Notes under the pieces: model-generated | Seen by the model: only the letters and a program-made list of their open reading frames with translations | What the model was told of the DNA's origin: nothing | Database searches by the model: none | Shown: piece after piece, positions 1-21,664 of the stretch | Numbering within the stretch: the stretch's first letter is position 1 | Layout: each line of letters begins with the position of its first letter | Source: a virus | Virus record (IMG/VR): IMGVR_UViG_3300025889_000954 | Location: 1 to 23,748 of that record | DNA: 23,748 nt | Strand: one strand, 5' to 3' | Program-made: the position numbers and the translations under genes

Positions 1-90
1 CACGAAATTGGTGTTAAGGATTTCCGTGATAGGAATGACTTTTTAAGAAATGGATTAACAAAGAAAAACGGAGTATATATATATGAGTGA
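1..90 (+). CDS. C-terminal end of an unknown protein (partial)
   Basis: The first reading frame is open from the window edge to a TGA at 88-90 and encodes the last 29 residues of a protein, ending in NGVYIYE. Its stop sits inside the start of the next gene (the string ATGAGTGA at 83-90), an overlap typical of the other gene junctions here, which supports a real gene end. The visible part is charged and has no recognisable motif, so no function can be given. By position it probably belongs to the same structural or tail-appendage operon. Confidence 0.6.
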   Translation, partial: HEIGVKDFRDRNDFLRNGLTKKNGVYIYE

Positions 91-397
91 TGTATTAAGG
101 TCTCATGCTACAGTGGTGGATACGCTAACTGTGGCTTCTGGAGGGACATTAAACGTATCTGGGAACGAGAGAAACCTAATTCAAACAACTATCAAGTATG
201 CTTCTGGTGGTACTTTATATGTCATGGGAACCACAAATCAACCCGCAGGGACTACATTAGGTTGGTTAATGAGTTCTACAGAGGTTCATCACCACATGGG
301 CCCAGATAGCTTTTATTTAGCCGCTTTGGGTGCTACTACTCTAGTTTATAGAATGAGAGTATATGGAGAGGGTTATTTAGAGGGGACTTTTAGTTGA
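83..397 (+). CDS. Small beta-rich protein, probable tail-appendage or structural protein
   Basis: A 104-residue protein rich in Gly, Thr and Ser. Two similar stretches, TVASGGTLNVSG (about residues 16-27) and YASGGTLYVMG (about 39-49), look like repeated beta-strand units of the kind seen in phage fibre and beta-helix proteins. There is no signal peptide or membrane segment. The start is supported by GGAG at 70-73, about nine bases upstream of the ATG. It overlaps the preceding gene by eight bases and sits upstream of two large fibre-like genes, so a role as a small appendage or fibre-associated protein is likely but inferred. I do not recognise the family. Confidence 0.6.
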   Translation: MSDVLRSHATVVDTLTVASGGTLNVSGNERNLIQTTIKYASGGTLYVMGTTNQPAGTTLGWLMSSTEVHHHMGPDSFYLAALGATTLVYRMRVYGEGYLEGTFS

Positions 398-498
398 TCT
401 TAGTTCACTTACCTAATCCATTATATTGTGCATATAGACTTTACCCAGTCTTGATAACAGATGGTTCAATCCATGTGAGGTGTGGCCAATGGGAGTAA
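394..498 (+). CDS. Possible 34-aa small ORF with TTG start
   Basis: Between the flanking genes the first frame is open from a TTG at 394 to a TAA at 496-498. The TTG overlaps the previous stop (TTGA), has AGAGGGG about eight bases upstream, and the ORF ends in TAATG, so both junctions look like the coupled junctions elsewhere in this operon. The peptide is hydrophobic/aromatic at its start (LVHLPNPLYCAYRLYPVL) and has two or three cysteines. No family is recognised. It may instead be a spacer, or part of a frameshifted gene, since the reading frame of the downstream gene is also open back to 438. Confidence 0.35.
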   Translation: MILVHLPNPLYCAYRLYPVLITDGSIHVRCGQWE

Positions 499-836
499 TG
501 GTATCTAGTATTGGTGAAGATTCTGATGGCTTAACGCTATCTCAAGAATCCATAAATACTGTCACGACAACTGTAGTAGGTAGTGTGGGTACTGGTGAGA
601 CTTCCATCACTTTAGTTGACGTTAAAGCTGTAGATATAGCTCCAACGGCGGCAGATGGTGGTACTTATTACTTTTCTTACAATTCAGGTGCTCAAACATC
701 GAGTACAGGCAAGGTCTTAAGCTCTTCTAAACCCTTGATATTAGTGGCAGATTACGGTGAAAGGTTAAATTTTACCATATATATCTCTAGGTCTACGGGT
801 TCAGGCACATTATTGGTGGATGAGTACACTTTATGA
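489..836 (+). CDS. Small Thr/Ser-rich beta protein, probable tail-appendage protein
   Basis: About 115 residues, Thr/Ser/Gly-rich, with predicted beta strands throughout, for example TVTTTVVGSVG, ETSITLVDV and LNFTIYIS, and no charged coiled coil or membrane helix. I chose the ATG at 489 because GAGG (477-480) lies eight bases upstream. A GTG at 480 in the same frame would add three residues (GTG, TGG, CCA), and an ATG at 498 is also possible. The stop overlaps the next start (ATGA at 833-836), so translation is probably coupled to the large fibre gene that follows. The composition, small size and position suggest a structural domain or fibre accessory; the function is unknown. Confidence 0.6.
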   Translation: MGVMVSSIGEDSDGLTLSQESINTVTTTVVGSVGTGETSITLVDVKAVDIAPTAADGGTYYFSYNSGAQTSSTGKVLSSSKPLILVADYGERLNFTIYISRSTGSGTLLVDEYTL

Positions 837-3094
837 AGATAACAAGAAGTCTAGGCAGTTTAGATTTAAGTGGTTTTACAGATGGTTCGGTATTATTCGC
901 TGATGGCGGTGCTATTGCAGAGAATAACGCTGAGTTTTACTTTGATACCACCAATCACAGGTTAGGATTAGGCCAAAACGCTTCAGATTTCGCTATTGAT
1001 GTGAATGGATTCACTTCTTTAAGAACTTCTTTTGTTATTAGGGAAGAAGGCTCAGATAACGCTTGGATGCAAGCTTTGATGAGAAATGGTAGTGGTCCTG
1101 CAAGGCAAATGGTGGCTAAGTCTAGAGGTACTAGTGATGCACCAACGGTAGTAATTGATGGTGACGCAGTTGCCGAGTGGCAGATGGTGGGATATAACGA
1201 TGATTTATCTCGTTACAATCATGTAGCTATTCTTAGAGCTTCTGTTGATGGGACTGTTGGCTCTGACAAGGATATGCCAGGACGCTTAGAGTTCCATACA
1301 AACGATAATTCTACTGCAGACATGACAATCTCTGCCATGATTGATTCCAATAAGGATTTCACCACTTATGGGCAATTAAGGGTAGATCCTGGAAGTGACA
1401 CAGATACAAATATAATTACAGTTGATGTTACTGGTACTCCTACAATGTCATGGAATGAGACAGGCGACGCTTTTGAGTACAATAAAGGCGTTATATTTAG
1501 CCCAGGTTCAGACACAGACATTACTCTTGTTACAGTGAATGTGACAGGCCAGCCTACATTTAGATGGGATGAGTCCGAAGATGAGTTTATCTTAGGTGCT
1601 AATGTTACAATTGAGGGAGATATTTACACTCAATCAGTGACCTTTGAGGGTGACATGAGTGAAGCTGACTGGGGTATGTTTGGTATTCGTGTTACTGGTA
1701 CTGGGTTATCTACTTTCACAAATACTTCAACTGCTGCAAGTGGAACTGTTTCCAGGGCCACTACAGTTGTTTTATCTCAAGGAACTATTGCTGCCACAAA
1801 TTCAAATGTTACCTATACTGAATATTATGGAGCCTACTGTTATGAACCAACGGCAGGAACCAATGTTACATTTAGCAATAGGTTTGCCCTTGGTGCTCAA
1901 CATATTAAGGTTGATGCTCAACCTGTAGCAGCTATATCATCAAACCTTGGAGCTATCTATGTAGCCGGAACTACGGAATACACGGCTGCTGGGAACTACG
2001 CTCACCCCGCCGTACAATATGCTTCACAGGCTGACTTTACAACTTCACCAAATGCGTATGGTGCCGGATTCTTGTTTTGGAACAAAGCTACATATAATTA
2101 TACAAACTCAAATGGTGCTTTTAGTGTTGGTCCGTCGTACACACTAGTAGATCAAAAACTTACAGAAGTCACAAACGCATCAGCAACTAAAACGTGTGCT
2201 TTTGATATATCTATTTTGGTTAATCCAACATACAGATCAACAGGAACTGGGACATTAACCGTATCGGCAGCTTATGGGCTTAGGAATAATTTTGTTTTTG
2301 ATTCAAGAAGTACAGCAACCGAACTTTTTGGTGCTCAGTTTCTTGATGTTACTTTGAGTGACACAGAGACTACTTCTCCTGGAACTGTAACAAGTCATGC
2401 TGCTATTTGTGTTGCTGACTTAGCGAACGCAACAAATAATACGTCTTTGCTACTTGGCACCTCTACAATACCTACTGGCGACTGGAGTATTTACCAAGCT
2501 GATACAAAGGTAAATAGGTGGAATGGCGGTCATAGATTTAAAAGAAGAATATCAACAACGACAAATCAATCACTATCAAGTGCGGACCACTACACATCTT
2601 CAGACAATAACGCTGGAACAACTGTTACACTACCAGGAGCAAATGCGGGCTTACATCAAGTAGTAGTTAATGCAAATACGGCAGGTGGTGCTGTGTTAGT
2701 TCAGGCAAACTCTGGCTCTGGTGATAGTATTGAGGGTGGTGATGTGACTCTCTATAATAGGGGCGATGCAATTACTCTATATGCTGAGTCATCTTCTTTA
2801 TGGAGAGTTGTTTCTAGGTATCAACAGGGAACAGACCTTACTACTGTGACGGGCGACTACACGCTGCTTTGGAATGATAGACACATTGATTGTAATAGTA
2901 CCTCGGCAATTTTAATTACTGAAGTAGCAAATCCTGTGCATGGTCAGATGTTTACAGTGACTAATGTTAATACTGGAGCTGTTACTTTCAGTTTTGACAT
3001 CAGTGGTGATAGTAGTCTATCATTAGGCCAATGGGAAGGTGTAACCTTTCGATATAATTCAACAATTAGTAAATGGGTAGCGACGGAGTATTAA
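833..3094 (+). CDS. Large tail fibre / appendage protein
   Basis: A 753-residue, almost entirely beta-rich protein dominated by Thr, Ser, Gly, Val and Asn. Residues 18-47 carry the pattern GSVLF-ADGG-x-NNAEFYFDTTNHRLGLG, which I know as a recurrent module in phage tail fibre and appendage proteins. Residues 186-216 and 224-252 form a tandem repeat beginning PGSDTD and containing VTGxPTxxW. A long central region (about 270-570) is Thr/Asn-rich and ends in GDWSIYQADTKVNRWNGG, typical of fibre shafts. Two related C-terminal domains follow (about 570-660 and 665-753), each with a strand-rich block ending in W-R/K-V. There is no catalytic motif and no visible intramolecular chaperone domain. The start overlaps the previous stop (ATGA). 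It probably forms a receptor-binding or other surface appendage; the precise location on the virion is inferred. Confidence 0.75.
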   Translation: MKITRSLGSLDLSGFTDGSVLFADGGAIAENNAEFYFDTTNHRLGLGQNASDFAIDVNGFTSLRTSFVIREEGSDNAWMQALMRNGSGPARQMVAKSRGTSDAPTVVIDGDAVAEWQMVGYNDDLSRYNHVAILRASVDGTVGSDKDMPGRLEFHTNDNSTADMTISAMIDSNKDFTTYGQLRVDPGSDTDTNIITVDVTGTPTMSWNETGDAFEYNKGVIFSPGSDTDITLVTVNVTGQPTFRWDESEDEFILGANVTIEGDIYTQSVTFEGDMSEADWGMFGIRVTGTGLSTFTNTSTAASGTVSRATTVVLSQGTIAATNSNVTYTEYYGAYCYEPTAGTNVTFSNRFALGAQHIKVDAQPVAAISSNLGAIYVAGTTEYTAAGNYAHPAVQYASQADFTTSPNAYGAGFLFWNKATYNYTNSNGAFSVGPSYTLVDQKLTEVTNASATKTCAFDISILVNPTYRSTGTGTLTVSAAYGLRNNFVFDSRSTATELFGAQFLDVTLSDTETTSPGTVTSHAAICVADLANATNNTSLLLGTSTIPTGDWSIYQADTKVNRWNGGHRFKRRISTTTNQSLSSADHYTSSDNNAGTTVTLPGANAGLHQVVVNANTAGGAVLVQANSGSGDSIEGGDVTLYNRGDAITLYAESSSLWRVVSRYQQGTDLTTVTGDYTLLWNDRHIDCNSTSAILITEVANPVHGQMFTVTNVNTGAVTFSFDISGDSSLSLGQWEGVTFRYNSTISKWVATEY
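1388..1588 (+). repeat. Tandem repeat inside the fibre gene (period about 38 codons)
   Basis: Two adjacent units encode PGSDTD, then I-x(2)-V-x-V-x-VTGxPTxxW, then a D/E-rich turn and F. The units start at 1388 and 1502, a period of 114 bases. They are clearly related as protein but diverged as DNA, so this is an old domain duplication rather than a recent one. Confidence 0.7.
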
Positions 3095-4237
3095 ATGGGT
3101 TTAAAATCAAATAGTATGGTATCAACCAATAATTCAACTTCAACTCTACTAACTAATGCGAGTGTGTTTACTGGTACTGGAGAAGATGTTTCTGGATACA
3201 ACACAGTAACGGTTGCAGTTAAGACAGACCAGAATGGTACTTTCTCGGTTCAATTCTCCAGTGACAATACGAATTGGGATTCTGTTTTAACAAGGCAATA
3301 TAGAACAAATCAGATTGAAGCTCCTCATAAGTTTACAATCACAAGAAAATATTGTCGTGTTGTGTTCACTAATAATAGTGGGTCAGATCAGACTTATCTA
3401 AGATTGCAAACTATATTTAATAGCCATCCAGATTTAAACGCTCCTTTGGATTCTACATTATCGCAAGATTATGATTCAACTTCAGTTCGACCAAGTGATT
3501 ATCATTACGAAGTTGCTTTGGCGAGAAGACAAGGTAACACTCTTTGGAATAAGTTTGGTTATAATGCTGATATTGATACTGGTACAGAAACTATATGGTC
3601 AGTTGGTGGTACGTTTGCAAAGCTAACTACGGCTAGAACTTTGTCAGTAGTTTCTACTTCTACTGCTGACGATAGTGGTTCCACTGGAGCTGAGTCTGTT
3701 AGAATTTATGGAGTTGATGCCAATTGGAATGAGCAGACCGTTGATGTAGTTATGGACGGTACAACTCCTGTTGTGACTACTGAGACATGGTTAGGTGTAA
3801 ATAGAATGGCAGTAACGCTTGCTGGTTCAGGCCAAGCAAATGCAGGGGTAATTACTGCTACAGCTACAACTGACGCAACTGTTCAAGCACAAATTCCAGC
3901 AGGGGAAGGTTCCTCTCAACACGCCTTCTTCTTTGTTCCAGCAGACCACCAAGCACTGGTCGATTGGCTCTATATAACACTAACTAAAAACGCTGGCGGG
4001 ACTCAGCCTGATCTTATAACTAAGGCATGGGTTTTCTCTGATATTTCTAATTGTTGGTATGAGGTGTTTAGAGATCACATGAATGGTAATGTGGAGAATC
4101 ACAGTAATTTAGTCCCTTCGCAGCCATTTGTTGTAGGGGAAAAATCTTTACTTGAATTTAGATCTACGACAGATCAAGATAATACTGAAGTTACCTGTAG
4201 GTTTTCTTTAATTGTAGTTCGTGATGTAGACGCATAG
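3095..4237 (+). CDS. Phage structural protein, probable tail-appendage component
   Basis: A 380-residue beta-rich protein whose ATG directly follows the TAA of the fibre gene, with GGAG about eight bases upstream. The N-terminal domain (about 20-110) contains TVTVAVKTDQNGTFSVQFSS followed by DNTNWDSV, resembling an Ig-like or carbohydrate-binding sandwich. The middle (about 150-275) contains KFGYNADIDTGTETIWSVGG, VYG/VDANW and IPAGEGSSQHAFFFVPA, a pattern I recognise from uncharacterised structural proteins of marine phages. The C-terminal part looks like another small beta domain. There are no enzyme motifs. It probably forms part of a tail or capsid appendage together with the preceding fibre. 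I have no specific family name for it. Confidence 0.7.
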   Translation: MGLKSNSMVSTNNSTSTLLTNASVFTGTGEDVSGYNTVTVAVKTDQNGTFSVQFSSDNTNWDSVLTRQYRTNQIEAPHKFTITRKYCRVVFTNNSGSDQTYLRLQTIFNSHPDLNAPLDSTLSQDYDSTSVRPSDYHYEVALARRQGNTLWNKFGYNADIDTGTETIWSVGGTFAKLTTARTLSVVSTSTADDSGSTGAESVRIYGVDANWNEQTVDVVMDGTTPVVTTETWLGVNRMAVTLAGSGQANAGVITATATTDATVQAQIPAGEGSSQHAFFFVPADHQALVDWLYITLTKNAGGTQPDLITKAWVFSDISNCWYEVFRDHMNGNVENHSNLVPSQPFVVGEKSLLEFRSTTDQDNTEVTCRFSLIVVRDVDA

Positions 4238-4245
4238 GAGACAAA

Positions 4246-4467
4246 ATGAGTTTAGCAGATGATTTATATTCTATTGGTTTAAAGATAGAGCAGCTAAAGG
4301 CTTTACGGCCTGAAATTACATTCTCCGTTGAGAACAAACAAGATCCTCAAGGTGACTACTTTAATTTCAGAGCTGACTACACAGTATTAAGTTCAAGGGA
4401 TGCTAGTTATGTAATTGATGTATTTGAAGCCTTAAGACAACAATATTTAACAGAGGATAGTAATTAA
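4246..4467 (+). CDS. Small hypothetical protein
   Basis: A 73-residue soluble protein that I do not recognise. It has an N-terminal helix (LADDLYSIGLKIEQLKAL), a beta-type middle (EITFSVENKQ, then DYFNFRADYTVL) and a C-terminal helix (VIDVFEALRQQYL), which fits a compact alpha/beta fold. The start is strongly supported by TAGGAGACAAAATG. A 15-base string around this site (4234-4248) recurs exactly at 4723-4737 before another small gene. It is the first of four small genes between the fibre genes and the terminase. A packaging-accessory or assembly role is possible from position only. Confidence 0.65.
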   Translation: MSLADDLYSIGLKIEQLKALRPEITFSVENKQDPQGDYFNFRADYTVLSSRDASYVIDVFEALRQQYLTEDSN

Positions 4468-4468
4468 A

Positions 4469-4726
4469 ATGGGAAAAGCAGAATTAGCTGCCGCATGGCA
4501 AATAGTAAAGACAGAATTAGACACATTACCTGATGACTATGACAAGCTTGATTTATTAGAGATGGCCGATGAGTTTATTGACGCAAAGTCTAAAGAAGTT
4601 GACGAGTCCTTAAAGAGCGTTGACCCCACAAATATCAGTGACGTACCATCAGGGCTTGCTAAAGTTTTAATTAATAAAAAATGGTATAACATTAATACTA
4701 AAACAGGTGAATTAACGCCAAGATAG
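4469..4726 (+). CDS. Small acidic hypothetical protein
   Basis: An 85-residue acidic protein, mostly helical in its first half (ELAAAWQIVKTELDTL, then a DLLEMADEFIDA helix). Its C-terminus, NKKWYNINTKTGELTPR, looks like a beta hairpin. It starts two bases after the previous stop. The Shine-Dalgarno element (AGAGGA) is rather distant from the ATG, so translation is probably coupled to the gene before it. No family is recognised, and no DNA-binding or enzyme motif is seen. A weak case as a small-terminase-like protein could be made from its position before the terminase, but nothing in the sequence shows it. Confidence 0.6.
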   Translation: MGKAELAAAWQIVKTELDTLPDDYDKLDLLEMADEFIDAKSKEVDESLKSVDPTNISDVPSGLAKVLINKKWYNINTKTGELTPR

Positions 4727-4734
4727 GAGACAAA

Positions 4735-4926
4735 ATGCAAGAAACATACCAAAAGAAAAAGCTGGCATGGCAGAACATTTTACACGCTACAAGTATTGCT
4801 GAAATGAGTAAACAGAAACACGCTCAAGTTGAACAAGACTTAGTGTATTTAGGCAAGGAATTGGGTTTAATACAAGACCAAAAAACTCCTGTTGTTGAGC
4901 CAGAAGTGGTAGAAGATGCCAATTAA
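4735..4926 (+). CDS. Small helical hypothetical protein
   Basis: A 63-residue, lysine- and glutamine-rich protein predicted to be almost entirely helical (residues 3-48), ending in an acidic tail (EPEVVEDAN). The heptad-like spacing of hydrophobic residues suggests a short coiled coil. It has the best ribosome site of the small cluster (TAGGAGACAAAATG), identical over 15 bases to that at 4234-4248. It overlaps the next gene by 11 bases. Its function is unknown. Confidence 0.6.
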   Translation: MQETYQKKKLAWQNILHATSIAEMSKQKHAQVEQDLVYLGKELGLIQDQKTPVVEPEVVEDAN

Positions 4927-5188
4927 AGTAAGTAGTCGCCCACCAACGCCACAAGAAACTAAAGAATTACAAAAATCAGAAACAGAAATAGAAGTTAGGG
5001 ATTATGCACAAGAAAATCCTAAGGATCTATCTGAATCTGTAATTAAGCTAGTTTTAGATAGTGAAGAGTTTCAAGACGTTTTAAGAGATTGTGTTCATAA
5101 GTCTGCTGACTTTACTATGACAATTATTGAGCGTCATTTGCAAGATTATCATAAACCAGAAAAGCCATGGTGGAAATTTTGGGGATAG
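4916..5188 (+). CDS. Small hypothetical protein ending in a Trp-rich tail
   Basis: A 90-residue charged protein. The N-terminus is Pro/Gln/Glu-rich and probably disordered. Residues 38-78 (SESVIKLVLDSEEFQDVLRD, then an IIERHLQDY helix) are helical, and the last residues are KPWWKFWG. C-terminal Trp-rich tails of this type can act as short membrane-interface or docking peptides, but that is inference. Its 3' end overlaps the start of the terminase nuclease gene by 22 bases, so the two are probably coupled. It occupies the place where a terminase small subunit or ATPase domain would be expected, yet it shows neither a helix-turn-helix nor a Walker motif that I can see. Confidence 0.6.
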   Translation: MPIKVSSRPPTPQETKELQKSETEIEVRDYAQENPKDLSESVIKLVLDSEEFQDVLRDCVHKSADFTMTIIERHLQDYHKPEKPWWKFWG

Positions 5189-6003
5189 ATGATTACCAGT
5201 GGAACGTGGTCTATGAGGAAGCGTATAAGGAAGACGGTTCTTTGTACTTTCCTCAAAGGCTTGACCAAGATTTTTTAGATAATAAGCGTAAGGTGCTAGG
5301 TTCTTACATATTTGCCAACCAATACTTAAATAGGGTTGTACCAGATGAAGAACAAGACTTTAAAAAATCATGGATCAAATATTATCATTTTCTCCCACCG
5401 GAGAAGTACACGTTTGTCACTATTGATCCGGCGATTAGCCTCAACGATGGTGCTGATTATACTGCTTTCTGTGTTGTTCATGTTGACCCAGATCGTAACT
5501 GGTATGTTCAAATGGCTAATAGATTGCGTATCAATGCTACTGACACAGTGAAGTTGATATTTGAGTTATATGATCGTTTTAAACCTCAAGTTATAGGGGT
5601 TGAGGCGATTGCCTATCAACAGGCACTAATTCACTTTTTACAAAATGAGTCCAAAAGACGCGGTTTACACCTCCCAATAATGGAGATTAAGGCCGCTAGA
5701 CTCGACAAAGAGGGTGGTAAAATGGTTACTCCCTCTAAATATATTAGAATAAGACGTTTAGTTCCTATGTTTGAATGGGGTAAAATCTTTTTAAACCAAG
5801 GACTACATGATTTAGAATTAGAATATTCTTCATTTCCTAGAGGAAGTCATGACGACATCATGGATGCTTTAGCTAGGGTTGAAGATGTAGCATATTATCC
5901 ACATTCTATAAGGAGGATGAAACGTGACCCACAACCAAACGACCCAGAATACGAAAGATGGTATATTGGACAGCTTGCTAAAGGAAAAAGACCGGAAAAG
6001 TGA
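5167..6003 (+). CDS. Large terminase, nuclease domain only (no ATPase domain)
   Basis: A 278-residue protein matching the C-terminal half of phage large terminases. Residues 10-60 contain EDGSLYFPQRL and LGSYIFANQYLN, the linker normally found after the ATPase domain. The RNase H-like nuclease follows: FVTIDPA (Asp87), VIGVEA (Glu146) and SHDDIMDAL (Asp229/230), the three acidic positions that bind the catalytic metals. Full-length terminases are usually 450-600 residues, with Walker A and B motifs ahead of this linker. Here the frame is blocked by stops just upstream (5107, 5128 and 5152 region), and no P-loop is seen in the other predicted proteins of the window. ATG at 5167 has only a weak ribosome site; TTG at 5179 is an alternative. 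The product would cut concatemeric DNA during packaging, with the motor supplied by another gene or a missing segment. Confidence 0.85.
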   Translation: MVEILGIDDYQWNVVYEEAYKEDGSLYFPQRLDQDFLDNKRKVLGSYIFANQYLNRVVPDEEQDFKKSWIKYYHFLPPEKYTFVTIDPAISLNDGADYTAFCVVHVDPDRNWYVQMANRLRINATDTVKLIFELYDRFKPQVIGVEAIAYQQALIHFLQNESKRRGLHLPIMEIKAARLDKEGGKMVTPSKYIRIRRLVPMFEWGKIFLNQGLHDLELEYSSFPRGSHDDIMDALARVEDVAYYPHSIRRMKRDPQPNDPEYERWYIGQLAKGKRPEK

Positions 6004-6340
6004 GGCTATTTCAGCTCCACTAGAATCTGAGTCTCCTGAAGTTAAAGAACCAGTAGGATTTTCTGAAGAAGAAGTAAAAAAAGAAGTAAAAAGAGAGAAC
6101 GAAATCGAGAATTTTGAGACCAAAATAGCTATTGCTGCTAGAAATGGTCAAAAATGGATGGAAGTGCCTAAAAATATCTTAGTAAACCTATGCAGAGGTG
6201 AATATCCGAAGTCTGGGTACATTATTTGGAAGAATGTTAAGGTATGTGAAATGGGTAGAGCTGAAGAATTGGCTAAAAAAGATGGAGAAACAGCTTTTGA
6301 AAGGGTTTTTCCTGGTGAAACTACCAAAGTAGGTGTGTAA
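5924..6340 (+). CDS. Hypothetical protein following the terminase, GTG start inside the terminase gene
   Basis: A 138-residue protein. The GTG at 5924 has a near-perfect AGGAGG at 5911-5916, seven bases upstream, so this start is preferred even though it makes the gene overlap the terminase end by 80 bases in another frame. Residues 1-70 are highly charged and probably disordered (runs of E, K and S). Residues 72-138 form a small folded domain containing KWMEVPKNILVNLC, then GYIIWKNVKVCEMG and AEELAKKDGE. It ends in TAATG with the next gene. I do not recognise the family. Its position between terminase and portal suggests a packaging or head-assembly accessory. Confidence 0.65.
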   Translation: MTHNQTTQNTKDGILDSLLKEKDRKSEAISAPLESESPEVKEPVGFSEEEVKKEVKRENEIENFETKIAIAARNGQKWMEVPKNILVNLCRGEYPKSGYIIWKNVKVCEMGRAEELAKKDGETAFERVFPGETTKVGV

Positions 6341-6549
6341 TGAACATTGAATTGGTAGTTATTTCATCTTTGTTGGTTTTAACAAATTTGTATTGGATGT
6401 ATCATTCTCAAAAATTAGTAGATAAGATAATGAGTAGAGATTTCACCGAATACAGAACAGCAGAGATAAAAGAGCCAGTTAAACGTCCAGAAAAGGTACA
6501 ACAAGGGGTGCCTGAAAACCTTGGCCCATTGCAAGATTTCGTCCTTTAG
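6340..6549 (+). CDS. Small single-pass membrane protein
   Basis: A 69-residue protein with one clear transmembrane segment at about residues 4-22 (IELVVISSLLVLTNLYWMY), followed by a basic/helical stretch with DKIMSRDFTEY and a proline-rich charged tail. Small proteins of this layout, with a similar MSR(D/N)(F/Y) motif, recur near the terminase/portal genes of other tailed phages, usually annotated as hypothetical. A class II holin or spanin-like role is possible from the single helix, but no endolysin gene is adjacent, so I leave the function open. It is coupled to the previous gene by TAATG. Confidence 0.65.
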   Translation: MNIELVVISSLLVLTNLYWMYHSQKLVDKIMSRDFTEYRTAEIKEPVKRPEKVQQGVPENLGPLQDFVL

Positions 6550-6576: not shown

Positions 6577-8640
6577 GTGAGTATTTTTGACAAAATAGGT
6601 TCGATTATGTCTTCTGCTGACGATCAAAGTCAAGAAGACAAGAACCTGGCATCATATCTTAAATCGAGAGTATCAGAAATCCGTTCAAGCTCAAGCCGCA
6701 TTGCGCATGAGGGTGTATGGATGACCAACATTGCATACTTATTAGGGTATGATTCTGTTTACTATGATACTGATTCTAGACAATTCAAACCTGTTGGATC
6801 GGGGTCGCAATATCTAGCGAGAAATCGTATTCACGTTAATAAGATTCTTCCAATCATCCAAAACAGACTAGCCAGATTATGCAAAAACCCACCTCGCTAT
6901 GATGTGCGCCCCAATTCCAACGATCAAGAGGACAAAGACGCTGCTAGATTAGGTGTGAAGCTAATTACTAACGTATGGGACCGAGAAGCCTTAAATAAGA
7001 AGCGTATTGACCTGTATATGTGGATGCAACAATGCGGATTTGCTTGGATAAAGACCTGTTGGGATGATGAAAAGGGTAAAATGGCCTACAATCCTGAAAC
7101 TGGAGAAATAGAGTATGAGGGTGATATAGCCTGTGAGGTTTATTCACCTTTTGAGGTATTTCCTGATCCATTAGCCAAAACAGAAGAAGATATGCGTTAC
7201 TTGATGACCGTAAAAGTGCGTAAATTGGATTATTTCAGAAACAACTATGAAAAGGGTAACTTAGTTAAATCTGAGGATGCTTGGCTACTATCTACTCAAT
7301 ACCTCCTGCGTGTCAACTCAATGAACACTCAGGGGCCCACATCGTCCGCTATTCAGCAGCAAATGGAAAATGCGGCCCTAGAGATAGCTTACTACGAAAA
7401 ACCCTCTAGAAAGCATCCTGGGGGCAGATTAGTGATATGTGCTAATGGTGTGATCCTAAGAGATGATCCATTGCCTGTAGATGAGATCCCTTTTGCTAAA
7501 TTTGATGACATTGTAATTGGCGGGAAAATCTATTCTGAGAGTATTATCACACACTTACGTCCTATGCAGGACCAATTTAACCGAGTAATCACCCGTAGAG
7601 CAGTATGGACCAATGCTTTGTTGGCCGGAAAATATATCGCAGCTAGAGGTCATGGACTGTCTCAAGAGGCAATAAATGACACTACAGAGGTTGTAGAATA
7701 CGATCATGTTCCAGGGGCACAGCCTCCTACTGCCATGAACATACCTAATATCCCTCAATATGCCTATGCCGAGGAGGAGTCATTAGAGCAAATGCTAAAT
7801 GATGTTGCTGGCATAAATGAGGTCTCCAAAGGGCAACTTCCTGCTGCTGGACTTCCTGCTATTGGGATGCAGTTATTAACAGAGCAAGATGATACTCGTA
7901 TTGGGATTATGATTGAGCGTCATGAATATGCCTGGGCCAAGGTAGGTCGTCATATTCTTAAATATGCTGAAAAATACTATCAAAACGAGAGAATGTTAAA
8001 AGAAGTAGGTAGTGGGGACCATTACGAGGTCAAAAAATTCAAAGGTGAAGATATATTAGGAAATAATGATGTTATTGTTATTCGTGGCTCTACTTTGCCT
8101 GGTTCTAAGGTACTACGTCGTCAAGAACTACTAAATTTATACGAAAGAGGTCTTTTAGGAGATCCTATGCAGCCTGAAACTAGAGAAAAGGTATTGGGTA
8201 TGTTGGAATTTGGCGATGTTCAGGAAGCTTGGAAAGAGCATGAGACTGACATGAAACAAATAGAGCGTGATATTGAGATGATGAAAGAGGGCAATTATGT
8301 TCAAATTCATGAACTCGATAACCACCCTTTACATATCAAAGAAAAGAACAACTTCAGAAAAACAGATGATTTCCTTCAATTAGATCCTAATTCTCAGGTT
8401 CTTTTATTGGAAAACATCGAAAAGCATATCCAAGCCATGACTGGAATCATGGAAGATGCTCAAGGCACTCCAAACATGAATGATCCTAATGAGAAGGCCG
8501 ATATGGAAAAAGAAGCCTTACTGGATTCTGCGGATATGATGCAGGATATGGACGATATTCAGTTAGAACAAGGTGGCGAAGCCTCTTTAGTTCCTGATGA
8601 GCAAAATCCATATGCTATGGACCCAATGGGAGGATTTTAA
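6577..8640 (+). CDS. Portal protein
   Basis: A 687-residue protein of the large podovirus-type portal family (P22-like in size; P22 gp1 is about 725 residues). Recognisable blocks are VYSPFEVFPDP (about 190), LRPMQDQFNRVITRR (about 330-345), AGINEVSKGQ and GIGMQLLTEQDDTR in the central crown/stem region, and IMIERHEYAWAKVGRHIL. The C-terminus (about 610-687) is acidic, Met/Gln/Asp-rich and helical, as in barrel-bearing portals. As a dodecamer it would form the DNA channel at one capsid vertex and dock the terminase, then the adaptor. The GTG start at 6577 is preceded by AAGGGGA about eight bases upstream. The gene ends in TAATG. No disruption is seen. Confidence 0.92.
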   Translation: MSIFDKIGSIMSSADDQSQEDKNLASYLKSRVSEIRSSSSRIAHEGVWMTNIAYLLGYDSVYYDTDSRQFKPVGSGSQYLARNRIHVNKILPIIQNRLARLCKNPPRYDVRPNSNDQEDKDAARLGVKLITNVWDREALNKKRIDLYMWMQQCGFAWIKTCWDDEKGKMAYNPETGEIEYEGDIACEVYSPFEVFPDPLAKTEEDMRYLMTVKVRKLDYFRNNYEKGNLVKSEDAWLLSTQYLLRVNSMNTQGPTSSAIQQQMENAALEIAYYEKPSRKHPGGRLVICANGVILRDDPLPVDEIPFAKFDDIVIGGKIYSESIITHLRPMQDQFNRVITRRAVWTNALLAGKYIAARGHGLSQEAINDTTEVVEYDHVPGAQPPTAMNIPNIPQYAYAEEESLEQMLNDVAGINEVSKGQLPAAGLPAIGMQLLTEQDDTRIGIMIERHEYAWAKVGRHILKYAEKYYQNERMLKEVGSGDHYEVKKFKGEDILGNNDVIVIRGSTLPGSKVLRRQELLNLYERGLLGDPMQPETREKVLGMLEFGDVQEAWKEHETDMKQIERDIEMMKEGNYVQIHELDNHPLHIKEKNNFRKTDDFLQLDPNSQVLLLENIEKHIQAMTGIMEDAQGTPNMNDPNEKADMEKEALLDSADMMQDMDDIQLEQGGEASLVPDEQNPYAMDPMGGF

Positions 8641-12274: not shown

Positions 12275-12696
12275 CTAATAGAGATAAGGACGCTTCTGAG
12301 AAGCAGTACTCCGTACAAAATCAGTGGAATATCGCTGCTGATTTAGTAACTGGTGCTACTGTAATGGCTCATATTGTGTCACATCCTGCTAAAATGAAGT
12401 CTGCCCAATTTGCTGCCCTTGGTGTGTCTGGTTCTCCAACTTACCAAGTAAATGCATTGAGATGGACTTCTGGTGGAGCCACCGTAATCCCTCTAGGTCC
12501 TGCGGCCACTGTGTCTGCTGATTTTGGAGTGTCTGGTTCTGTAGTTGAACAATCAAGTTCATTAATTTCTTTGGAAACTGGTGATGTACTTCACGTTATC
12601 ACTGGCGGTGCTAACTCTGCTGCTCTAGATTTATCTTGTGCAATCGTGTTAGAAGCTCTCCAAGACATTAAAGAAGAGTTCGGTAGTCAAGAATAG
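12265..12696 (+). CDS. Probable capsid decoration or minor structural protein
   Basis: A 143-residue, mostly beta, low-charge protein rich in Ala, Ser, Gly and Val. The middle has the strands VMAHIVSHPAKMKSAQFAAL and YQVNALRWTSGGATVIPLG, and the end has LISLETGDVLHVITGG, the L-x-x-GD-V-L turn common in jelly-roll structural proteins. It lies right after the capsid genes and is the last gene before a strong terminator, so it probably shares their high transcription. A capsid decoration (cement) protein is the most likely reading, but a small fibre or another minor virion protein is possible. GGAAACGAAAATG provides the ribosome site. Confidence 0.6.
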   Translation: MGIANRDKDASEKQYSVQNQWNIAADLVTGATVMAHIVSHPAKMKSAQFAALGVSGSPTYQVNALRWTSGGATVIPLGPAATVSADFGVSGSVVEQSSSLISLETGDVLHVITGGANSAALDLSCAIVLEALQDIKEEFGSQE

Positions 12697-14174: not shown

Positions 14175-14687
14175 ATGGTTAAAACATTTGGGGTGGTATT
14201 TACCACAGACGATCCAAGCGCAGAATCAGGATTAGTCCCTGTTTTTGACAAGTTTAAGACAATAAGTGGAACTTCAGTGGCAGTACCAACTATCTCAGAA
14301 TTAGGATCTGACGGTTTGTATTACTTCACAGCTACTTTATTAGCCAATGAGCTAATCTATTTTGTAATGGATGGAGCTACTACTGGATTGGGTGGTAATA
14401 GGTATGTATCAGGGATGCTAGATCCTGCTGATGCAATAGACGTTCAGACAACTAACTTTTCGTCAACAATGACCGCCGTACTTGGTGCCACTACTTCAGC
14501 TATTGGAGATGATTCTACTGCCCCTGCCGATATGTGGGGATACCTAATGAGACTACGAGAGTGGTTAGAGGGTGATGGAGAATACAATAAGGCAACTGGT
14601 GCATGGACACAAAAGAACATAGCAGGAACAACAACATTATCAACTAAAACACTAGCTGATGGAGCTACCATAGTTAGTAAAACTTAA
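14175..14687 (+). CDS. Small beta-rich structural protein
   Basis: A 170-residue protein. The N-terminal domain (about 1-85) is beta-rich with DGLYYFTATLLANELIYFV, resembling small carbohydrate-binding or fibre-like domains. Near residues 131-165 it has WLEGDGEYNKATGAWTQKN followed by GTTTLSTKTLAD, a closing element I recognise from small structural proteins of other phages (a GTT-L-x-T-K-T strand). A strong TAGGAGAATAAAATG ribosome site is present. It sits between the C1q-like genes and the glycosyltransferase, and is most likely another minor virion or appendage protein. The exact family is not recognised. Confidence 0.6.
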   Translation: MVKTFGVVFTTDDPSAESGLVPVFDKFKTISGTSVAVPTISELGSDGLYYFTATLLANELIYFVMDGATTGLGGNRYVSGMLDPADAIDVQTTNFSSTMTAVLGATTSAIGDDSTAPADMWGYLMRLREWLEGDGEYNKATGAWTQKNIAGTTTLSTKTLADGATIVSKT

Positions 14688-14696
14688 GGAGACTAA

Positions 14697-16964
14697 ATGA
14701 AGCCGACATTATCACTTTGTATGATCGTAAAGGACGAAGCCCACAACTTACCACGTCTTTTAAAATCTGTGGAAGGATGTTTTGATGAAATACATATTAC
14801 TGACACAGGATCTACTGATAACACAGTGGAGATAGCAAAAGATGCGGGATGTATTGTCCACCATTTTGATTGGGTTAATGATTTTGCTGCTGCCCGCAAT
14901 TACTCTTTTTCTCATACTAAAACTGATTACATTATGTGGATGGATGCTGATGATGTACTTGGAAATAAGGATGAGTTCTTAAGATGGAGAGATAACGTCA
15001 TGTGTATGGCAGAGTATTGGTTTGTTAATTATAACTATGCCTATGATGACAAAGGAAATGCTATTTGCACATTTGCTAGAGAAAGAGTTGTAAAAAGAGC
15101 TAAGAAGATACCTTGGAAATACTTCATACATGAGGGTATGGTTCCTGAGCCTGGTCAAAACCCAGTAGCTCAAGCGGTAAATACATGGTCAGTAAACCAC
15201 ATGAGAACCCAAAAAGACATAGAAGCTGATAGAGGTAGAAACCTTAAATATATTGAGGAAAGACTAGAGCGAGGCGAAGAGATCCCAACTAGGCTTAAAT
15301 TTTACCATGGTAAAGAGCTATTTGATGCTGGTATGTATGCCAAGTCATTTGATGTATTAGACAGTATTGATTTAAAACAATTAGAAGGACATGACAGAAT
15401 CCTTACTATTCAATATATGGTTAAGGGTCTTCATTTGAAGTCTGGTGATGAAAAGTGCCCTGCTGTCAGAGATAGACTTATTGAAAGAGCCTACAGAACT
15501 GCTGTAAACGCTTCTATTCTTTCACCAAAAAGAGCTGAATTTCATGTATTAGCTGGTGATTCTAAAATCATGCAAGGAAAGGCTGATGAAGCACTTCCTC
15601 ATTATGGAGCTGCTAAGAACTGCCCTTTAACAAGTGATATGAACCCTTTATTCAAAGCTGATGATTTATATGGATTTATTCCTAGTGAACAAATAGCCAG
15701 AATCCACTTAACAATGGGTAATTTAGATTTAGCTGAGAAGGAAGCAAAGGAATGTTATGAAGTTTATAGAAGACCTTCTACGCAAGAACTCTTGGCTCAG
15801 ATTGTTAGATGTAAGTCCATTAAGAGCGGAGACTACGCAAAAGACCTCAAAGAAACAGAAGAAATAGTAATTTCCTGTATGCCTGGATCATGCACTTATG
15901 AGTGGGATGATGTTATATATAAGATGAAGGGAATAGGAGGGTCTGAGACCGCCGCCGTTGAAGTTGCTGAGTATTTAGCCCAAAAGACAGGAAGAACTGT
16001 AATTGTCTTTAACGATAGAGAAAAAGAGAGAATCACTGAAAGTGGTGTTCATTATAGATCAAATCAAGAAATGAGAGACTATTTTCTCACTTACAAACCA
16101 TATCGTCATATAGCGTGGAGACATAACATAAAGCTAACTACGGCTCCTACATACTTGTGGAATCATGATTTAGCTGCTCCAGGTGTGAATAATTACAGAA
16201 ACTATGATAAATTACTGTGTTTGTCTGACTTCCATAAGAACTTTTCAAATGTGATAAGTGGTGTTCCTTTTGAGAAGATTGCTGTTTTTAGAAACGGTAT
16301 TGATACAGATAAATTTAAGAAATTCGATTATCTTAAAAAAGAGCCATTAAGAGTGATGTATTCTTCATCTCCTGACAGGGGTGTAGACAGAGCTATTAAG
16401 GTAGTTGAACGCGCCAGAGAGAAGGCAAGGCTTAATATCCAATTACACGTTTATTACGGATTTGATGTAATGGATAAGCACAACATTAAAACAACGGCCA
16501 TTGGTCAGAGCGTGGATGAATTAAGAGATTTGGTCTATAACACTGATTTTGTTGTTTACCATGGGAATGTGGAACAACGTCAATTAGCCAAAGATATGAT
16601 GAAATCATCAGTTTGGTTATATCCTACATGGTTTATGGAAACATTTTGTATTACAGCTATTGAGTGTTTACAAGCTAGATGTTTCCCTCTTGCACGCGCT
16701 GTGGGAGGTCTAAAAGACACCTTAAAGTCTGCTGACGATAGAAAGATGGCTAAACTTGTGTCTAGAGATTGCATTACAGACGAAGATATTGAGTTTTGGG
16801 CTGATGAACTAATAGATGCTCTGAAAAATGAAAAATGGCGTGATATAATTCCAGAGTTATTTGACCATTCATGGGCTTCTGTAACTGATGATCTAATTGG
16901 GATTATGGATGCAGAACCACTAGAGAAGAAGGAACAAGAACTTGAGCTTTCCAAAGTACAGTAA
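14697..16964 (+). CDS. Two-domain glycosyltransferase (GT2-like + helical repeats + GT4-like)
   Basis: A 755-residue protein with two sugar-transfer domains. Residues 3-170 are a GT-A (family 2-like) domain: SLCMIVKDEAHNLPRLLKS, DEIHITDTGSTDNT and WMDADDV (the DxD metal/nucleotide site, Asp83-Asp85/86). Residues about 195-360 are helical with TPR-like alternation (FYHGKELFDAGMYAKSFDVL, HLTMGNLDLAEKEAKECYEV). Residues about 388-735 are a GT-B (family 4-like) domain: GIGGSETAAVEVAEYL, FRNGIDTDKF and an E-x7-E motif (Glu648 to Glu656) in WFMETFCITAIECLQA, typical of retaining enzymes using nucleotide sugars. It is probably cytoplasmic; no signal peptide or membrane helix is seen. AAGGAGACTAAATG gives a strong start. 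Likely targets are a virion protein or a host surface glycan; neither is shown by the sequence. Confidence 0.88.
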   Translation: MKPTLSLCMIVKDEAHNLPRLLKSVEGCFDEIHITDTGSTDNTVEIAKDAGCIVHHFDWVNDFAAARNYSFSHTKTDYIMWMDADDVLGNKDEFLRWRDNVMCMAEYWFVNYNYAYDDKGNAICTFARERVVKRAKKIPWKYFIHEGMVPEPGQNPVAQAVNTWSVNHMRTQKDIEADRGRNLKYIEERLERGEEIPTRLKFYHGKELFDAGMYAKSFDVLDSIDLKQLEGHDRILTIQYMVKGLHLKSGDEKCPAVRDRLIERAYRTAVNASILSPKRAEFHVLAGDSKIMQGKADEALPHYGAAKNCPLTSDMNPLFKADDLYGFIPSEQIARIHLTMGNLDLAEKEAKECYEVYRRPSTQELLAQIVRCKSIKSGDYAKDLKETEEIVISCMPGSCTYEWDDVIYKMKGIGGSETAAVEVAEYLAQKTGRTVIVFNDREKERITESGVHYRSNQEMRDYFLTYKPYRHIAWRHNIKLTTAPTYLWNHDLAAPGVNNYRNYDKLLCLSDFHKNFSNVISGVPFEKIAVFRNGIDTDKFKKFDYLKKEPLRVMYSSSPDRGVDRAIKVVERAREKARLNIQLHVYYGFDVMDKHNIKTTAIGQSVDELRDLVYNTDFVVYHGNVEQRQLAKDMMKSSVWLYPTWFMETFCITAIECLQARCFPLARAVGGLKDTLKSADDRKMAKLVSRDCITDEDIEFWADELIDALKNEKWRDIIPELFDHSWASVTDDLIGIMDAEPLEKKEQELELSKVQ

Positions 16965-21127: not shown

Positions 21128-21664
21128 ATGGCAGGACTTATTTCACAAGATAAAATAACTGGTGCCGCTATAGGCGAAGAAAGACCACCTGAATATAGCC
21201 CAACTGAGGCGTATGGATCTGCGATGGGACAAATGGCTGCTGATAGCGGTTTTGAAAAAGAGGGTTTGTCTTCATATGGAGCAGAAAGCCTTATGAATAC
21301 TGATCCTAGAAAATCAACTATGGCACCTATGTATAGAGCTATAGAAAATAACGAAAGAGACAAGTTTAACGCTGGTCTTCATATTATGAGGAAAAACATA
21401 AATGCTGCTAATCCAATTCACTCTTTCCAAAGATACTCAAGGCTTGCTGATGTTGAAAACAGAATGAAGGAAGTAGAACGTCAGAGAAGGCTATATGAAG
21501 AACAGTTAAATGCTAATCGTAAAAAATCTAGAGCAACACTAATTAGTGGAGTATTAGGCTTAGGTGGTGCCATTGGTGGTGCGTTGATTGCTGGACCTGC
21601 TGGAGCTGCTTTGGGTGCAACTGCTGGATATGGTGCTGGTAGTGCAATAGGTGCGAATTTATAG
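21128..21664 (+). CDS. Probable ejection protein with C-terminal glycine zipper
   Basis: A 178-residue protein. Residues 1-130 are soluble and charged, with a helical region (LADVENRMKEVERQRRLYEE). The last 45 residues are SRATLISGVLGLGGAIGGAL followed by an Ala/Gly zipper with GxxxG spacing that ends AIGANL, able to insert in membranes. Glycine-zipper tails are typical of phage proteins injected to form an envelope conduit, such as pilot/ejection proteins. GAGGAG lies upstream of the ATG. It lies next to a second glycine-zipper protein (22827 on), which strengthens the reading. No family name is recognised. Confidence 0.62.
   Translation: MAGLISQDKITGAAIGEERPPEYSPTEAYGSAMGQMAADSGFEKEGLSSYGAESLMNTDPRKSTMAPMYRAIENNERDKFNAGLHIMRKNINAANPIHSFQRYSRLADVENRMKEVERQRRLYEEQLNANRKKSRATLISGVLGLGGAIGGALIAGPAGAALGATAGYGAGSAIGANL

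Follow-up and report, generated by a model that had tools for sequence, protein, structure and literature searches.

The large terminase (TerL) of this lineage of uncultivated phages is probably made as two proteins that act together as one non-covalent motor. TerL is generally treated as a single-chain motor. The window, meaning the whole stretch of DNA analysed here, is a 23,748-bp virus record and a fragment of its genome. ORF 5167-6003 in this window encodes a 278-aa product that corresponds to the C-terminal part of TerL without the ATPase, while the ATPase is encoded by a separate gene further upstream, and a block of other genes lies between the two.

The nuclease and ATPase genes

The product of ORF 5167-6003 matches phrog_38 (terminase large subunit) with residues 12-242 (E 7.5e-40), but only at profile positions 468-703 of 760, so the N-terminal half of TerL is missing from it. 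Pfam Terminase_6C matches residues 85-235 (E 4.7e-05). The nuclease motifs named in the first-pass annotation are borne out by the relatives, among which D87, E146, D230 and D233 are invariant (30/30) and D229 is kept in 26/30. The AlphaFold model (pLDDT 84.5) has its best fold matches in the PhiV-1 terminase and in the herpesvirus and T4 terminase nucleases. Both the residues and the fold matches thus point to the Asp-Glu-Asp metal site of an RNase H-like nuclease, as in TerL. The frame is closed off upstream, as had been stated, with the first in-frame stop above 5167 a TAA at 5152 and 178 in-frame stops upstream in total. The real start of the protein may be a downstream in-frame start closer to Trp12.

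The first-pass annotation saw no Walker A P-loop in the predicted proteins of the window. This holds, since a pattern search of all frames of the whole window found no terminase P-loop; the pattern matches at 21443 (-) and 23322 (+) are chance matches. The ATPase gene is not wholly missing, as its last 29 codons and stop open the window (Table 1). Translated, they read HEIGVKDFRDRNDFLRNGLTKKNGVYIYE followed by the stop, which is the C-terminus of the 251-aa ATPase encoded on IMGVR_UViG_3300006802_000023 (L001). This 40,846-bp record has 16 mismatches to the window over 16,000 bp and extends 911 bp further upstream (window position = L001 position - 911). The ATPase gene is at L001:246-1001, so the predicted separate motor gene does exist immediately upstream of the window, where its start would fall 666 bp before the first base. 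Ten of the 16 differences between the two records are grouped at window 12473-12483 and 14456-14464, a few bases each, and resemble short conversion or local misassembly.

The L001 ATPase has the motifs PRGCFKSS (Walker A), LIIGDD (Walker B) and GTR (coupling motif). P67, R68, G69, K72, D170, D171, T209 and R210 are invariant in 30/30 pairs, and the ATPase-core signatures of TerL, PRGxxK(S/T), IIxDD and (G)TR, are invariant or nearly so in the same 30. Pfam Terminase_6N (PF03237) had no match in the window or in three relatives despite the ATPase being present there; the model is too divergent, and phrog_38 was used in its place. On L001, phrog_38 matches the ATPase at 291-466 and the nuclease at 467-713, so on the TerL profile the second ORF picks up where the first leaves off. 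The gap between the halves in the window and L001 is 5,076 bp and holds seven or eight same-strand genes.

Table 1. Features of the window from the end of the ATPase gene to the portal gene
Position	Strand	Feature	Evidence
1..90	+	3' end of separate TerL ATPase gene (last 29 codons + stop)	Translation matches L001 ATPase C-terminus
83..397	+	104-aa beta-sandwich protein, family c0	c0 HMM; overlaps ATPase stop by 8 nt
480..836	+	118-aa protein of inserted block	ORF, no family match
833..3094	+	753-aa large protein of inserted block, fibre/virion-type by size/composition only	ORF
3095..4237	+	380-aa protein of inserted block, phrog_8198	phrog_8198 E 1.1e-22
4246..5188	+	Four small ORFs (4246-4467, 4469-4726, 4735-4926, 4916-5188), end of inserted block	ORFs
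5167..6003	+	TerL C-terminal protein: lid/linker (~residues 12-78) and RNase H-fold nuclease (~81-245)	phrog_38, Terminase_6C, AlphaFold
5924..6549	+	Two small ORFs (5924-6340, 6340-6549) between nuclease and portal	ORFs
6577..8640	+	Portal protein (P22-like)	P22_portal E 1.5e-26, phrog_156 E 4.1e-45

Position of the break

The junction aligns exactly with the contiguous sequence of intact TerLs. Where an intact TerL reads GTRWSYYELYSYLMEKHQDEIDMYIRGAYNPDGSLYFPERL, the split ATPase ends ...GTRYSENDLIGYILREQLK with a short tail and a stop, and the nuclease begins M(Q/K)WxVVYxKAYNxDGSLFFPE. The alignment of intact and split proteins places the break directly after the coupling motif and its helix. 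From the break to the first nuclease strand (residue 81) there are 65-70 residues, matching the part between ATPase core and nuclease, and in TerL crystal structures this part consists of the lid subdomain and a short linker (PMC5727402). Based on the alignment and the published TerL anatomy, the N-terminal segment of the nuclease chain is therefore predicted to be lid plus linker. Within the lid segment W12, D23, F28, L32, L37, G45, Y53, N55, F65, W69 and P77 are invariant among 32 sequences. The description of the frame as beginning at the post-ATPase linker was close, in that a lid/linker segment is present, but the break is at the boundary of ATPase core and lid, slightly upstream of the linker between ATPase and nuclease. 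Since the break is upstream of the lid, the lid, hinge and nuclease remain one chain.

Genes between and around the halves

Family c0 appears to be specific to the break. Its HMM finds it between the halves in 49/57 split contigs and in 0/49 intact loci, and nowhere else in the records searched. The c0 gene often begins within the last few bases of the ATPase gene, and is sometimes present in two or three copies. Pfam, PHROG and PDB sequence searches gave no match for c0. Its AlphaFold model is an all-beta sandwich (pLDDT 83), and the Foldseek matches are to small uncharacterised phage proteins and only to a generic jelly-roll/cupin-like sandwich. Cluster c4 (L011, L053, L055) is probably a diverged c0, with an hhalign probability of 82%.

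The 753-aa protein has no Pfam or PHROG match, and large unmatched proteins recur in relatives at its position. The 380-aa protein has a homologue in the insert of L048 (cluster c6). The four small ORFs that end the block have no Pfam or PHROG family match, and the last of them overlaps the nuclease start by 22 nt. In the window the inserted block covers 83-5188. Across contigs the cargo in the break varies and includes large virion-type proteins, family-2 glycosyltransferases and proteins without a match. L002, L011 and L026 have glycosyltransferases within the terL break or next to it. The window also encodes, at 14697-16964 among virion genes, a 755-aa protein with two glycosyltransferase regions (phrog_13126, phrog_2170). 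The history of the locus was probably a single insertion carrying a c0 gene, with the break then turning into a site of cargo gain and loss.

Downstream of the break the nuclease, two small ORFs and the portal follow one another in the window, L002 and L010, which is the packaging-cluster position of TerL before the portal. L002, L010 and L011 have small ORFs resembling the two in the window in the corresponding position. Given the position of the portal gene, the order of the packaging cluster is otherwise kept. The window capsid and portal are nearest to the Jasmine group. Judged by these two proteins, the closest isolates are phages of actinobacteria, but an identity of 22-29% is too low to say much on the host.

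Distribution and origin of the split

The comparison of gene order in relatives, which the first-pass annotation proposed as a check, found the same split widely. Searches with both halves recovered them as separate genes in 57/57 contigs that have both, from 47 assemblies, with gaps of 224-6328 bp and no fusion. By nuclease sequence these form 50 clusters at 95% identity and 42 at 70%. The halves have one order and one orientation, and each of 16 records of 34-41 kb contains a single copy of the ATPase half and a single copy of the nuclease half. In one of these records, G024 (loci L057 and L145), the two genes sit close to opposite contig ends, the arrangement expected of a circularly permuted genome. 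The 49 intact relative loci have both domains in one ORF, and there the nuclease profile takes over at the point where the ATPase profile stops.

The tree, from which L013 was left out, covers 30 split pairs (halves concatenated) together with 22 intact TerLs from the environment and 7 TerLs from isolates. The split pairs form one branch (bootstrap 100, SH-aLRT 100) with one change of state, nested among intact TerLs. Because intact TerLs lie on both sides, the split is derived from a fused gene, and on this phylogeny it is shown to have arisen once from an intact terL. An ancestral gene broken by a block between its halves had been put forward from the window alone, and it agrees with the homologous intact TerLs as the fused ancestor state, the nested split clade and the virion-type genes at the break. 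An earlier tree that included the very distant L013 had intact rows inside the split group and two state changes. It was discounted as a long-branch effect on the rooting, since without L013 and with isolate outgroups a single clade is obtained at 100/100.

Divergence within the split lineage is wide, with pairwise identity down to about 37-40%. L034/L044 is the only pair for which dS could be computed in each of the two halves; its dN/dS is 0.06 for the ATPase (dS near saturation) and 0.02 for the nuclease. The ATPase and nuclease trees have a few supported conflicts (L037, L046 and L032; L010, L027 and L030), and their patristic correlation is 0.59. With these conflicts and a correlation of only 0.59, close co-evolution of the halves is not demonstrated. 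The conflicts may hint at an exchange of halves between phages, but are too weak to claim it.

The prophage search gave no match with the nuclease alignment and one MAG contig with the ATPase alignment. In L139 a split terL and c0 are on a contig binned as Candidatus Nitrosotalea (an archaeal MAG), either a host link or a binning error. In L106 (3-305 and 286-1140) a TerL of an otherwise intact group is in two frames with a 20 bp overlap, probably due to a sequencing frameshift.

A probable motor of two chains

Chain 1 would supply the ATPase core, with Walker A, Walker B and the coupling motif, and chain 2 the lid, hinge and RNase H nuclease. Both proteins would dock non-covalently at the portal and so rebuild one TerL subunit. 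The lid on the nuclease chain would then close over the ATP site in trans, and force would pass through the unbroken lid-hinge-nuclease chain.

The nuclease appears to be translated by coupling to the gene just upstream, since its start abuts or overlaps the preceding stop and a Shine-Dalgarno signal of its own is missing. In 24/43 loci the nuclease starts -4, -1 or 0 nt from the preceding stop, and in 39/44 it starts within -30 to +20. A Shine-Dalgarno core precedes the nuclease in 8/51 cases, with 6.2 expected by chance, compared to 70/146 for other long ATG-started ORFs in the same loci. The start codon is ATG, GTG or TTG and lies mostly 1-11 residues from the first Trp. Translational coupling to the cargo gene would be the simplest reading of these signals.

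In T4 the lid is described as a transmission that couples the engine to the nuclease/translocation domain via the hinge (PMC3012670, PMC9958956), and translocation is held to require that this hinge join ATPase and nuclease covalently. T4 gp17 split at the linker/hinge retains ATPase and nuclease, but translocation is abolished (PMC3012670, PMC9958956). This result counts against a two-chain motor. The break may be tolerated here perhaps because it leaves the lid, hinge and nuclease whole, and only the engine is separate. A further version of the two-component motor, in which the ratio of ATP engine to docked lid-nuclease is set by the coupling to cargo-gene translation and the nuclease may join, leave or be swapped from one phage to another, is conceivable but rather unlikely.

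Alternative explanations

The halves could be rejoined after transcription, with the block as a spliced intron, or with split inteins that ligate both proteins. Phage hosts are not known to have a spliceosome. Group I introns split terL in the Jug phages, where the gene is also in pieces and splicing that rejoins them is seen in metatranscriptomes (PMC12363816), but here a search of 19 sources with Rfam matched no intron family, neither group I nor group II. The herpesvirus terminase genes UL15/UL89 are likewise interrupted by unrelated virion genes, with 2-5 genes within a spliced intron (PMC6466031). They are spliced to encode one protein, whereas the window lineage appears to have two stand-alone genes. 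The block is made of several overlapping genes, spans 0.2-6.3 kb and has no common boundary sequence that could be seen, and the nuclease has its own start codon close to the first Trp. Inteins are found in the TerL of relatives at Walker A, Walker B and the coupling motif, but these are other sites than the junction, and the ATPase tail and nuclease leader are too short for intein halves. Rejoining is thus considered very improbable.

The relatives' inteins are of the LAGLIDADG type. L012:1442-4993 has them in the TerL ATPase gene at Walker A and Walker B, and L164:8699-10471 has one at Walker A of a split-clade ATPase. The coupling motif is the site (G^TR) in L120, where it was read directly, and in L088 and L097, where it was placed by domain position. 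From this G^TR site it is about 17-20 residues downstream to the split junction. Homing events at terL might be what first broke the gene.

A different possibility is that the halves are not one subunit, with the ATPase alone as a translocating ring and the lid-nuclease only cutting DNA at the start and end of packaging. Motors of the phi29 type, which package by an ATPase without an active headful nuclease, are the precedent, and a separate nuclease coupled to cargo translation could be the less abundant of the two. The ATPase half stops before the lid, which in TerL structures couples ATP hydrolysis to movement (PMC5727402), so the ATPase alone would miss the coupling subdomain. Together with the strong conservation of the lid segment on the nuclease chain, this leaves the phi29-like division of labour a small chance of being correct.

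A broken or misassembled terL, whether as a pseudogene, a sequencing error or a chimeric contig, has been suspected in a comparable case. In Parabacteroides phage phiPDS1 (MN929097) the TerL domains are in two adjacent CDS according to its authors, who suspected a codon-table or assembly issue (PMC10773633). That case differs from the present one in its break position (337 aa and 148 aa), 92-nt gap, lack of cargo and suspected origin by artefact or recoding. Here the split is common to all 57 contigs and 47 assemblies, the arrangement of the window is repeated in a second contig, and both halves have conserved active sites and are under purifying selection. The two findings that the first-pass annotation named as fatal to its reading, an ATPase hidden in frame and an HMM alignment that includes the ATPase, were both absent. 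Because the junction recurs in 57 contigs, an assembly error is rejected, and the probability of a broken gene is negligible.

Comparison with known terminases

The single-chain TerLs of T4 (gp17), PhiV-1 and the T7 type (PDB 3cpe, 8dgc, 4bij) have the same two catalytic domains, motifs and pre-portal neighbourhood as the window lineage, with matches by fold and by profile, but each is one chain, whereas here there are two, broken upstream of the lid. The homologous TerLs of the nearest environmental relatives (L083, L089, L102, L118, L122, L128) are intact in one ORF of ~500-540 aa, and L122 has the canonical order of small ORF, terL and portal. The same ORF size is found in Jasminevirus, Microbacterium phage Shocker and ctEqG8, which have related capsid and portal proteins.

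Half-genes of this kind are already in databases, since PHROGs holds the ATPase-only phrog_4758 (243 aa) and the nuclease-only phrog_5573 (250 aa). Their ends meet at L122 residues 249/250, at about the same place as the split described here. All 32 members of each half match these families, though distantly (best E 2.7e-24 and 4e-34). The spring phage Podoviridae sp. ctLwi270 (MW202554, L135 2926-5463) likewise encodes ATPase and nuclease separately, in ORFs of 551 aa and 229 aa that flank a small 62-aa gene. It differs in that its break is after the lid, at the hinge, and its ATPase-lid ORF has an intein-like insert; its split is an independent event. A literature search, with subscription papers outside its coverage, found only phiPDS1 and the Jug phages as cases of split or two-gene TerL, and, within the same scope, no account of a whole clade whose TerL is encoded by two genes that structural genes separate.

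Implications for packaging motors

The terminase of the window appears to be a two-gene variant of TerL that would work like TerL. Since TerL is a standard marker gene, phages of this clade can be wrongly recorded as lacking a terminase or as carrying a truncated terL. A lineage in which the halves are kept apart over such wide divergence indicates that the motor can do without a covalent link between the engine and its other parts, and that the tolerated break point is the one separating engine from lid, rather than the hinge. The long-held hinge requirement, derived from the loss of translocation when T4 TerL is split there, becomes testable in this clade. Each half could be purified on its own, combined with the other at chosen doses and mutated, which a single chain makes difficult.
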